Shown: piece by piece, positions 33,286 to 41,249 of the stretch
Position numbering within the stretch: the first letter of the stretch is position 1
Layout of the letters: every line of letters starts with the position of its first letter
Assembly: GCF_003312875.1 (NCBI RefSeq)
Contig: NZ_CP015163.1
Coordinates: forward strand, 3,286,001 to 3,350,000
DNA: 64,000 bases
Source: Amycolatopsis albispora
Lineage (GTDB): Bacteria; Actinomycetota; Actinomycetes; Mycobacteriales; Pseudonocardiaceae
Direction of reading: 5' to 3'
Translations under genes and position numbers: made by a program
The notes under the pieces: model-generated
Database searches by the model: none
What the model saw: only the letters and a program-made list of their open reading frames with translations
What the model was told of the DNA's origin: nothing

Positions 33286-33320
33286 ATGGAGTTGCGGGCG
33301 CTGCGGTACTTCGTCACCGT
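33286..33320 (+). pseudogene. LysR regulator, 5' piece (split by integrative element)
   Basis: ATG 33286, after GGGAGG, encodes [11 protein letters not shown] and the first two bases of the next Val codon before homology ends at GT 33319-33320. The rest of the gene begins at 40436. Joining the two pieces gives [20 protein letters not shown], a perfect LysR N-terminus, and an 849-base frame of 283 codons. Here the frame runs 5' into the element and stops soon after, so the regulator is inactivated unless the element excises. Confidence 0.9.
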
Positions 33321-33352
33321 AGCGACGGCGGTTCTAGTGCACACTTGGAGTC

Positions 33353-34900
33353 ATGGGACCTTCACAGCCACTCCGTGAGCAGGGTCGGACGCTGATCGAA
33401 TACGACCCTGACCAGCTAGTTTGGATCCTGCAGGCCCGTGAGTCCAGGGTCACGCCGGGGCAGGACGCTCCTGGTGAGGGGCAGGTTGACTACCAACTCA
33501 GCGACCTGCGCAAGTTCGTCAAGGCCATCGGCGGAAGAGTGGACCGTGAGGTTCCGGAGCCTAACGTGTCCTCCTTCAAACGCCGCCGTGTGCTGCTGCC
33601 TGACGGCACCTACGGCTATCGGGTGGTCCGCCCTGATTGGGAGTCCATCCTGACCGCGTTGCGCCGTGGTGAGGCAAACGCCCTAGCTTCTGCGGATATC
33701 GACCGCGCTACCCGGGATCCTCGTATTCTGGAAGATCTCATCGATGCGGTTGAGTTATATGGCGTTTATGTCGTGAGTATGACCGGGAATATCAACCTCA
33801 CTACCGATGAGGGAATCGACTCGGCGCGACGCCTGGTCAATCAGCGCAACTCGGAGTCCCGCAACACGTCCCGTCGTGTCATTAATGGGAAAAGGCGCGG
33901 CGCCTATGCGGGGAAAACGCACGGTGGCCCGAATCGGCCGTTTGGCTGGCGCAAGGACCGGATTACCGTGAACAAGCGTGAAGCGAAACATATCCGCGAA
34001 GCGGTGCCGCGTATCGTCGCAGGCTTGAGTCCGCTCACGCTGGCACGGGAATGGAACAAGCGTAAGATTCCCACGGTGACCGGGGTTGAATGGCGAGCGG
34101 CCACGGTCCGGAATATGTTCACGCGCCCTCGCATGTGCGGGAAAGTCATCTACCGGGGGGCGGTACTCACGGGAGAAGACGGCAAACCGGTACGCGGCCG
34201 CTGGGAGCCAATCCTGACTGATGACCAGTATGCGGCGGTGGTGCGCGCGTGGATTCCCGCAGAGGAACACGAAAAATCTCGGGTCGGCGGCAAGGGACGC
34301 GGTTATCGGACCATTCATCTGCTATCACCGTTCGTCCGCTGCGGGAAATGCAATTCCCGCATGATCGGTTCAAACAGGCGCGATCAGCGTTCCGGTGAAC
34401 TGGTCGAAATCTATCGGTGCCCGTCAAAGGGCCAAGGCGGATGCGCTGGCGTGACCCGTAATGCCGCACCAGTGGACGCCTATGTTCGCGCGCTGGTGAT
34501 CGCCGAGCAGCAGAAGATTCAATCACGGAAGCTGGAAAAGCTGCCACCTTGGCCGAAAGAGAAAGAACTCAGAGACCTGCAAGCCCGGATCCGGGAGTCC
34601 ACGTTACGATACGAGGCAGGCGACTATTCGGCGGAACGCTACTTTCCCAGCCTGGCGCGCATGGAAGCCGCCGTAGCCACCTTAAAACGAGAGCAGCGCA
34701 AATACGCTGCAAAGCAAGATGCCCGCGACGCTGCGGTCGCGAACCTGGCAGAGGAATGGGAGAAGCCGAGTTTCACCATTGAATTGAAGCAGGCCGCCAT
34801 TGCGCGGAGCTTGGAAGCCGTGATCATCGCTCCCGCCGGAAAGGGTGTGCGGTTCCATCCGGACCAGATCACGCCAGTATTCAAGGAAGAACGGCAATGA
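33353..34900 (+). CDS. large serine recombinase (integrase)
   Basis: The 515-residue protein starts at ATG 33353 (GGAG 5 bases upstream). The N-terminal resolvase domain includes ARESR (candidate catalytic Ser), VDYQLSDLRKFVKAIGGRV and SADIDRATRDPRILEDLID. A recombinase domain (190-300) is followed by a zinc ribbon CGKCNSRMIG...CPSKGQGGC and a coiled coil. It catalyses attP-attB integration, and excision with a directionality factor. It lies next to the left junction, its usual position. The resolvase start is somewhat divergent. Confidence 0.93.
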   Translation: MGPSQPLREQGRTLIEYDPDQLVWILQARESRVTPGQDAPGEGQVDYQLSDLRKFVKAIGGRVDREVPEPNVSSFKRRRVLLPDGTYGYRVVRPDWESILTALRRGEANALASADIDRATRDPRILEDLIDAVELYGVYVVSMTGNINLTTDEGIDSARRLVNQRNSESRNTSRRVINGKRRGAYAGKTHGGPNRPFGWRKDRITVNKREAKHIREAVPRIVAGLSPLTLAREWNKRKIPTVTGVEWRAATVRNMFTRPRMCGKVIYRGAVLTGEDGKPVRGRWEPILTDDQYAAVVRAWIPAEEHEKSRVGGKGRGYRTIHLLSPFVRCGKCNSRMIGSNRRDQRSGELVEIYRCPSKGQGGCAGVTRNAAPVDAYVRALVIAEQQKIQSRKLEKLPPWPKEKELRDLQARIRESTLRYEAGDYSAERYFPSLARMEAAVATLKREQRKYAAKQDARDAAVANLAEEWEKPSFTIELKQAAIARSLEAVIIAPAGKGVRFHPDQITPVFKEERQ

Positions 34901-34920
34901 ACCCAGAAAGCACGCATGTG

Positions 34921-34972
34921 AAACGGCGGCGGGGTGCCCACCCAAATATGGGTGAACGCCCCACCGCCGTTT
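34921..34972. terminator. strong bidirectional hairpin terminator
   Basis: AAACGGCGG-C-GGGG and its mirror CCCC-A-CCGCCGTTT enclose CACCC/GGGTG, forming a long stem with small bulges and an AT-rich loop. It separates the convergent recombinase and the 34995 gene; T-rich on both sides. Confidence 0.8.
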
Positions 34973-34994
34973 ATACTCCCGGTCTGCGCCCGCG

Positions 34995-39197: not shown

Positions 39198-39380
39198 CCG
39201 TAGTCCCATCGTGCGAACGAGGTCCACCAAGTAACCGCAGGTCAAGCGTATCAAATGGCGGTTCGTTGGCGGTTCGCTGCCAGTGTGGTTGCTTGTCCGC
39301 TCGCGAAGCACGCTTCAAGGTCATCTGCGGTGGCAGAAGGTCAGGAGCCACGAAGATCATGCGGGACGACGGAGGACCTG

Positions 39381-39692
39381 ATGGGACGGCACACTCTGGT
39401 TAGCCAGGCACTACCCGCTGATGACCCGACGGCGGTTCGTGTCGAGCGGCGTTGGTATGCGGGTGATGGACTGGAGCACGCTTACCGGGAGAACGACCTA
39501 GCAGAAGCCGGGGCGGTGGCGATCACGCCGGGTTGCCAGGAAGGGCGTTACTACCCGGATCGGCATGACCGGAGCGCCGTCGCGGATCGCTCCCGGCAGG
39601 CTGCGTCGTTCGTGGGGCGGTGTCCAGGGTGTGACCGCTGGCAGCGAGGTCGCCGGGTGGTCGAAGTAGTGTCAGGGGTGATCTTCCCATGA
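39381..39692 (+). CDS. small element protein
   Basis: The 103-residue protein starts at ATG 39381 after GGAGG. Motifs: RRWYAGDGLEHAYRENDLAEAG, CQEGRYYPDRHDRS and FVGRCPGCDRWQRGRRVVEV, whose C-x2-C might bind zinc. Its stop overlaps the next start (ATGA). First gene of the rightward transcript. No known family. Confidence 0.68.
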   Translation: MGRHTLVSQALPADDPTAVRVERRWYAGDGLEHAYRENDLAEAGAVAITPGCQEGRYYPDRHDRSAVADRSRQAASFVGRCPGCDRWQRGRRVVEVVSGVIFP

Positions 39693-39862
39693 GGCGGTCG
39701 CAGGCTCAGGAGTGGGGAGTCCAGGGAGGTAACAGCGGCGGCGGCGATATCGACGCGGCTGCTCTACGCGGGGTGTATGCCTCATCTGATATGGAAGGCC
39801 ACGCCCGAATGTTGCCCGTTCAGCGCCATAACCAACCCGATGCCGAGCAGGAGGAAGCGTGA
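39689..39862 (+). CDS. very small element protein
   Basis: The frame ATG 39689 to TGA 39862 encodes 57 residues (MRRSQAQEWGVQGGNSGGG ... NQPDAEQEEA). Both ends overlap neighbours by 4 bases (ATGA and GTGA), strong support that it is translated. It is hydrophilic, Gly- and Glu-rich, with no known domain. Confidence 0.6.
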   Translation: MRRSQAQEWGVQGGNSGGGDIDAAALRGVYASSDMEGHARMLPVQRHNQPDAEQEEA

Positions 39863-40410
39863 ACCGGGCGGAATGGCGCGGAGTGCAGACCACCCACGAT
39901 CAAGCATTCCTGGAATTGCTGGGCGGCCGCTTACGGGCTGTCCGGATGTCGCGAGGCGCCGCCTGCACGGATGTGGGTAAAGCGGTGCACCGGTTGTCGG
40001 GCACGTCGGTATCGATGATCGAGCGCGGCCAGCAGCGAATCACGGTGTCGGGTCTGCGGGATCTATGCCGTTTCCTGAACCTGGACATGCCTAGCCTGCT
40101 GGGCGGTGTCGAAGCTGATTTGGGGGCTTGTCGTGGGCCATACGTGTGGGTGCCCGTGCCTGTGCTGGACGTACTGGCCGGGGCCGATGGGCAGTACGCC
40201 CCGCTGCGGGAGTGGGTACTAGCCAAGCGTGGACCGCGCGCGGTGGGGGAGTTCGATCGTGAAGCATTCCAGCGGGCGGCGCGGGCATGCGGGGTGCCGA
40301 CGTACACATTGCGAGCCAGGCTCTCCGCTCAGTCATCGCAGGTGTTCGCGACGTCCGGCGCCTGGGCAGGTCCCCCGGCTGCCCAGCCGCCGGATTCCCG
40401 GGAGCGATAG
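39859..40410 (+). CDS. XRE-family HTH protein
   Basis: The 183-residue protein has an HTH: LLGGRLRAVRMSRGAACTDVGKAV, SVSMIERGQQRITVSGLRDLCRFLN. GTG 39859 overlaps the previous stop and GAGGAAG precedes it. It ends 25 bases before the right junction. It could be the Xis/control gene opposing the other XRE regulator. A second half (YVWVPVPVLDVLAGADGQYA) has no known domain. Confidence 0.82.
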   Translation: MNRAEWRGVQTTHDQAFLELLGGRLRAVRMSRGAACTDVGKAVHRLSGTSVSMIERGQQRITVSGLRDLCRFLNLDMPSLLGGVEADLGACRGPYVWVPVPVLDVLAGADGQYAPLREWVLAKRGPRAVGEFDREAFQRAARACGVPTYTLRARLSAQSSQVFATSGAWAGPPAAQPPDSRER

Positions 40411-40435
40411 AGTGCATTAAGAAAGTCGTAGTTGT

Positions 40436-41249
40436 CGCGGAGGAACTCCACTTCGGGCGGGCGGCCGAGCGGCTGAACATCGTGCAGCCCGCGGTCAGCC
40501 AGCAGGTCGCCCGGCTGGAGCGGGAACTCGGCACCCGGCTGCTGGACCGCACCCCGCGCACGGTCCGCCTCACCGACGCCGGACGCCGGGTGCTCGCCGC
40601 CGCACGCGAAACGCTCGCCGCGGCGGAACGGGTGCGCGCGGCCGCGCACGAGCGCGGTGGTCTGTTCCGCGTCGGCACGGCGGCCGGTCTCACCGCGCGG
40701 CTGGAACGCGGGATCGACGCGCTGCGGGCGCAGAACCCGGAGTTCGAACTGGTGCTCGTCGACCTGCCGGTGACCGACCGCGTCCACGCGCTGCGGCGGG
40801 GTGAGCTGGACCTGGCGCTGGTGCGCGGCCCGGTTTCCGCGCCGGGGGTGCGCGTGCTGCCGGTGTGGACGGAACCGTTGCACGCCGTGGTTTCCCGGCA
40901 CCACCCGGCGGCCGGGCGCGAGAGCGTGACCGTCGCGGAACTGGCCGATCACGTGCTGCGGGCGCCATCCGACCCGCCCCTGTGCGAGGTGGTCACCGCC
41001 GCGCTGGGCAGTGCGGTGGAGTTCGGCCGGCCGGCGGGCAGCGTGCCGGACACCATCGTCGAAGTCGGCTCGGATCCGCGGAGCTGGGCGCTGCTCCCCG
41101 CCACCGACGTCGCCGCCACCGGCTCGACGCGCGTGCGGTCGCTGCCACTGGACCCGCCGATCACCATCACCGGCAACGTCCTCACCCCGGACCACGAAGT
41201 GGCCCAAGAGTGCACGGAAGCCGTCATCGCCGCCTTCCGAGACGGCTGA
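40436..41249 (+). pseudogene. LysR regulator, 3' piece
   Basis: This holds residues 12-282 of the split LysR protein: [43 protein letters not shown] and an effector domain. An open frame extends upstream to 40287 only because element DNA happens to lack stops; it is not the natural start. The coding body is intact, so excision would restore function. The stop overlaps the convergent AfsR-type gene by 26 bases. The natural target may be the LLM oxidoreductase at 33198. Confidence 0.88.

Follow-up and report, generated by a model that had tools for sequence, protein, structure and literature searches.

A large serine integrase element of Amycolatopsis albispora splits a LysR gene at the codon entered by sibling elements in other LysR genes

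Large serine integrases such as those of phiC31, Bxb1, SPbeta and A118/LI carry resolvase, recombinase and zinc-ribbon domains, and act on a palindromic attP with a central dinucleotide and a less symmetric attB. Portions of a 2022 recombinase survey (PMC10083194) describe both single-gene and multi-target serine recombinases, multi-targeting being defined as more than three target clusters (50% identity) per 90%-identity recombinase cluster, and part of the account of the dusA islands (PMC4482086) concerns a family of integrases that insert into a conserved coding gene at its 5′ end. Here we describe an integrative element of 7,115 nt in a 64,000-nt stretch of the Amycolatopsis albispora genome (NZ_CP015163.1, positions 3,286,001–3,350,000; hereafter the window), which splits a LysR gene (Table 1). 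Its integrase shares the three domains and the att site organisation of the large serine integrases and, like those of the dusA islands in that account, goes into the 5′ end of a gene that is conserved and coding; it differs in being aimed at a motif conserved across a family of paralogous regulators instead of at a single unique gene, whereas dusA is one orthologous gene in many bacteria. The integrase clade, aimed mainly at one codon of this paralogous family, is a variant between single-gene and multi-target enzymes.

The element is bounded by two GT dinucleotides, and the bases beside the GT on either side differ between the two junctions. Joining 33320 to 40436 gives an 849-nt LysR open reading frame (ORF) encoding 282 aa without an inner stop; an earlier note on this DNA had proposed a 7.1-kb element that splits the gene and can be removed base for base, and both its coordinates and its 849-base frame hold on recomputation. 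Its assignment of the GT junctions to the serine recombinase type also stands, the GT being confirmed and the 515-aa integrase (int) having three Pfam domains over cut-off. All 269 searched residues of the LysR 3′ part are open, and they are 78–81% identical to uninterrupted orthologues in the four closest relatives, all of the same genus (G063, G053, G026 and G057), in each of which a gene for an LLM-class oxidoreductase adjoins the LysR gene. LysR matches at E ≤ 1e-40 occur in 35 of the 80 genus genomes, source genome included; among 29 relatives' loci fetched, 28 read through the insertion site and one (G051) has an attR. The oxidoreductase gene lies beside LysR, within flanks of ~1.5 kb, in seven of the 29 (the four closest included), and the downstream BTAD-type gene is also within the fetched stretch in three of these four. 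The search for empty orthologues suggested by the earlier note thus yielded uninterrupted genes, and the contrary case that it had named, the same interruption with decayed ends, was not seen in the four closest genomes, all of which are empty. From this neighbourhood, the split LysR presumably serves the divergent oxidoreductase gene.

The target is the LysR family and not this one gene, which is invisible from a single locus. In other actinomycetes, integrases 62–87% identical to that of the window are found in different LysR genes at this very codon, and the valine codon of YFV.VA is where every LysR insertion breaks the gene; the earlier placement of attB in a conserved N-terminal coding stretch of LysR is borne out by these sibling insertions. 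Integrase homologues are present at E ≤ 1e-60 in three of 80 genus genomes (source included) and at E ≤ 1e-120 in 15 of 390 family genomes; at the latter threshold a class-wide sample of 394 genomes gave the source genome only, three candidates being scored per genome in these two larger searches, such that further copies may have been missed. GTDB contigs gave 12 named integrase loci, mostly from the same genomes as the family search, and a protein-level search (7,996 candidates scored; best 120 of 205 proteins) gave proteins without genomic context. No integrase relative was found in the plasmid collection at E ≤ 1e-40, or among 13 pattern matches in viral contigs; the phage collection held 21 records at E ≤ 1e-20, the best 20 of the 21 being 25–32% identical to the integrase.

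In sixteen other loci the integrase is ~55–87% identical and the left end can be read (one more locus, G051a, begins at its contig edge and its left end is unreadable). LysR is the target in 11 of them (G051b, G224, G186, G008, G184, G219, G232, G243, G176, L073 and G190), G190 being assigned by ~8 attL residues alone. Both ends are on one stretch in Kutzneria, two Crossiella, A. benzoatilytica, Actinocrispum, two Lentzea and Sphaerisporangium; the insertion is split over two contigs in Amycolatopsis sp. CA-126428 and Amycolatopsis sp. GM8, and is read from a few attL residues only in a Pseudonocardiales metagenome-assembled genome. The flanks rejoin to an open LysR frame in all nine contiguous LysR insertions, the window's included, and the far sides of the two contig-split insertions are also open (11 of 11 readable far sides). 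The 11 LysR remainders are mostly 30–65% identical pairwise, some high values being short local alignments. Two integrase pairs exceed 90% identity (G184/G186 and G232/G243, both 92%), and their target LysR proteins are ~42% and ~56% identical, giving one to two target clusters (50% identity) per pair, for two pairs only. As with recombinases in the portions of PMC10083194 cited above, relatives share a motif-like attB and several target gene clusters; the difference is that 11 of the 16 sibling targets belong to one protein family and one codon. Our paper searches, which did not extend to subscription papers and supplements, found no description of a serine integrase with LysR genes as its target, and 'LysR' occurs 0 times in the text of PMC10083194, its supplements lying outside the search. 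At the edge of a metagenome-assembled contig (L071:1–200) there are two tandem attL-like stretches separated by Ns, which may represent two elements or result from faulty assembly.

The sibling sites at the same LysR codon, together with the high rank of the window's own site, suggest that attB is the coding DNA of the first helix in the DNA-binding domain of LysR. The source genome has 53 LysR helix-turn-helix (HTH) matches at E ≤ 1e-6. A weight matrix built from seven sibling attB sites, the window's site excluded, ranked the window's site 3rd, 2nd and 3rd among these 53 LysR genes for three site widths, and on leave-one-out the sibling sites were beaten by 0–5 of 52 source-genome sites. Under the 42-nt model seven unoccupied LysR sites score above 44, the weakest sibling-used site scoring 43.9. 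Since the attB stretch is conserved across paralogues, several comparable sites are available within a single genome, and the LysR gene that is occupied differs among related elements.

R29-E-S31 and D117-R118..R121 of the integrase are invariant across 14 aligned sequences, and the R-E-S serine and the DR.TR arginines are the putative catalytic residues. In a Foldseek search of solved structures with an AlphaFold model of the integrase, the top matches were SPbeta, Bxb1, phiC31 and Listeria-type integrases, with full-length TM-scores below 0.4; compared to the large serine integrases, the N-terminus is divergent. At the circular junction (attP), 15 of 24 positions around the GT are complementary, compared to 6.9 ± 2.3 by the same score for all dinucleotide centres of the window. 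Across the 11 elements with both ends read, attP pairing averages 15.1 of 24 (range 11–17) compared to 6.0 ± 2.15 for shuffled arms, with shuffled right arms scoring at least 15 in 0.009%; the consensus half-site common to both attP arms is close to GCA.TA..A. The GT is present in all 11, and is the sole stretch shared by the two ends in eight.

An ORF convergent with int is the only one besides int, among those kept by a simple gene finder, to be matched in all seven complete siblings. Its conservation is limited to the last ~36 residues, the rest of the proteins being variable; this tail (consensus PTPEEWAxxQLxNAPxRSxxWARxVAxIYGL) is co-distributed with the integrase family whatever its target. 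Seventeen of the 18 integrase loci have the tail (the exception, G176, has it on a different contig); in every case it is encoded on the other strand from int, and it lies 74–101 nt past the int stop in 10 of the 17 and 252–4,043 nt past it in the other seven. The tail occurs in 17 of the 390 family genomes, and none of the 15 with the integrase lacks it (hypergeometric 3e-25), physical linkage being part of the reason for this co-occurrence; in G194, which has the tail without a full integrase, an int fragment is located at the contig end. The window's own 268-aa protein has no match in Pfam, NCBIfam, PADLOC or PHROG. A homologue search with the 71-aa tail protein of Lentzea returned two proteins, one hypothetical and one unnamed. 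Recombination directionality factors (RDFs) are usually hard to find; from its linkage we infer that the tail gene is a candidate directionality (excision) factor, which in its 268-aa form, with no family match in the four libraries, would set the system apart from other large serine integrases.

Taking these data together, we consider it highly probable that the window contains an integrated mobile element, the large serine integrase of which recognises the DNA of the LysR HTH start as attB and splits LysR in codon 12. Several observations weigh against this interpretation. The target varies within the wider clade, as five of the 16 loci are outside LysR: the element of Kibdelosporangium philippinense (G215; L068:9400–10001; integrase 68%) is in an apparent heme oxygenase gene, three others (G193, G093 and G159; L061, L063 and L062; integrases 55–60%) are, in both orientations, in an apparent replication initiator of a plasmid or of an actinomycete integrative and conjugative element (AICE), these genes being identified by eye, and the L074 integrase (62%) has another, non-LysR target. 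The three in initiator genes look like mobile elements inside mobile elements. In an integrase tree, rooted by choice on these three Rep-targeting enzymes, they group at 100/100 and LysR targeting is spread over the rest, five of 15 inner branches being open; the heme-oxygenase and L074 enzymes fall inside the LysR-targeting part, so retargeting has happened. The weight matrix was trained on LysR sites and LysR genes score high by construction, so that the scores inform only on the order of the LysR genes relative to each other, and in that order one or two genes stand above the window's site. The assignment of the catalytic serine is based on a motif, with PF00239 (resolvase) aligning only from residue 86 and leaving the N-terminal 85 residues unaligned, and the integrase structure model is weak (pLDDT 68, pTM 0.34). 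The ends share 6 nt in G232, 3 nt in G008 and 15 nt in G176, and for these three the GT core is thus only assumed. In G048 the PF07508 recombinase nearest to the tail is ~0.5 Mb away, other integrase classes not having been sought there. Finally, excision is known on paper only, and the empty site is known from relatives, not from the source strain.

In the proposed mechanism, the integrase would recombine attP with attB, the DNA for the start of the LysR HTH (YFV stretch), at the GT core, inserting the circle and splitting LysR within codon 12; excision would restore the LysR gene. The predicted int start lies 31–32 nt past the core, in the LysR direction, in eight of eight complete elements. 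A complete int promoter would not fit into this distance; in the integrated state int would therefore be transcribed from the host LysR promoter, and the promoter region, with its conserved block, probably drives int at this stage. On the right side LysR would be cut off from its own start, with loss of function as the default. No sigma-70-like promoter was found at 33180–33380. The LLM–LysR spacer also contains a perfect 10-bp inverted repeat with a 13-nt spacer (33213–33245); a role for it as operator was rejected, a perfect repeat of at least 7 being present in 0 of the 7 orthologues compared.

Against Pfam, none of the element's seven scanned ORFs is an FtsK/TraB-type (FtsK/SpoIIIE) transfer protein, and none is RepSA, RepAM or Prim-Pol, Pfam holding RepAM (PF12307) and the RepSA profile of the 2011 AICE survey (PMC3218068, which in part lists Prim-Pol as PF09250) lying outside the scan; the only replication-type match is Replic_Relax (PF13814). 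With no transfer or AICE replication protein in these ORFs, the element falls outside the AICEs as tested. It resembles them in its NsdA-like 441-aa and small XRE regulators, two XRE regulator classes being described for Frankia AICEs in part of the same survey. A sibling (G184) carries FtsK/SpoIIIE-like, NUDIX and WhiB proteins, and ORFs 58–66% homologous to its transfer protein occur in G008 and G219. The defence library gave weak matches only, to HTH-bearing models. The window's element is best called an AICE-related integrative element, and is probably non-autonomous. The lack of transfer and AICE initiator proteins, unlike in G184, would also fit a dead remnant that is fixed, non-mobile and degraded; we regard this as unlikely, however, given that the integrase is of full length, with two copies 87% identical to it in another genome, that both att sites are recognisable and that the LysR remainder is undecayed. 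The G+C content of the element falls to a minimum of 47%, compared to ~65–77% in the profiled flanks. The piece at 37250–39000 (205-aa and NsdA-like genes) has 47–55%, compared to ~59–73% in the element's left part, and is perhaps younger cargo.

It is quite unlikely that LysR survives in the window as a hybrid, its start and first helix newly provided by the element end, which has its own open frame from 40287. Upstream of attR the LysR frame continues open for 12–155 codons in all 11 insertions, 10 of which offer an in-frame ATG, GTG or TTG, and G224 and G176 match HTH_1 from positions 1 and 3, nearly the whole domain; however, the match starts at positions 7–9 in the other eight of 10 scanned (window included, G051 not among them), G051 has no start codon, the window's own start is 49 codons upstream and overlaps the XRE gene in another frame, and the arm sequence is accounted for by attP symmetry. 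As a general rule the hybrid was rejected on the first two of these counts, and with no HTH start in eight of 10, loss of LysR function is the default. At L052:3344–3643 (-) and L149:13432–13731 (+), the element end is in frame with LysR and HTH_1 matches from position 1 or 3, as if the element end replaced the lost first helix.

A reversible regulatory switch (active lysogeny, of the skin/sigK type), in which the host would time excision to turn on LysR and the divergent oxidoreductase, and which the earlier note had raised for the oxidoreductase regulator, is most improbable: the nine rejoined LysR frames are undecayed, the conserved integrase-linked tail gene could be an excision factor and LysR adjoins the oxidoreductase gene in the four closest relatives, but undecayed frames are equally expected of recent insertions, siblings occupy other LysR genes, so that no particular regulon is served and the element has no special tie to the LLM oxidoreductase, and, compared to comK/A118 and skin, gene restoration here is a rejoining on paper alone.

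Table 1. Features of the element and its LysR target in the window (positions of the 64,000-nt stretch).
Feature	Position	Strand	Evidence
F420-dependent LLM-class oxidoreductase gene, divergent from split LysR	32329–33198	-	PF00296 134 bits; TIGR03564 253 bits, over cut-off
LLM/LysR intergenic region, presumed divergent promoters; block GCAGCGAT.A..T	33199–33285	.	block conserved in relatives' orthologues (8-sequence alignment)
LysR 5′ fragment, codons 1–11 and GT of codon 12; begins ATGGAGTTGCGG	33286–33320	+	rejoined frame
attL, GT core 33319–33320	33291–33345	+	junction reading
Large serine integrase (int), 515 aa	33353–34900	+	PF00239 34.5, PF07508 49.5, PF13408 32.8 bits, all over cut-off
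268-aa ORF convergent with int	34995–35801	-	unmatched in Pfam, NCBIfam, PADLOC, PHROG
Conserved tail IPTPQEWAEEQLAQAPQRSQEWARDVASIYGL of 268-aa ORF; candidate directionality factor	34998–35129	-	sibling comparison
Replic_Relax (replication-relaxation) protein, 448 aa	35814–37160	-	PF13814 160 bits; phrog_9381 'replication initiation by nicking'
205-aa ORF, low G+C	37369–37986	-	no family match in Pfam, NCBIfam, PADLOC, PHROG
HTH regulator, NsdA family, 441 aa	37986–39311	-	NF053720 184 bits, cut-off 75
XRE-type regulator, 183 aa, reads rightwards, ends within attR	39859–40410	+	PF13560 36.3 bits, over cut-off
attR, GT core 40434–40435	40406–40460	+	junction reading
LysR 3′ part, remainder of codon 12 through stop codon, intact frame	40436–41249	+	PF00126, PF03466 over cut-off; orthologues

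The integrated mobile element with a LysR-directed integrase, as preferred here, can be extended to a joint picture, unlikely as a whole, of an element family that would live off the LysR family. Landing always just downstream of a LysR promoter and in the same direction, int may report that promoter's signal; LysR regulators commonly repress their own promoter, and the insertion itself would therefore release it. Excision, with the tail protein as directionality factor, may be tied to the host metabolic state, and in some members the end of the element would rebuild a working LysR N-terminus. Independently of this, the elements define a clade of serine integrases directed mainly at a coding motif of a protein family, and they provide a natural case of degenerate attB recognition. 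The unoccupied high-scoring LysR sites would be of use in engineering actinomycetes; should the tail gene be a directionality factor, it would add an RDF family that is recognisable by sequence.

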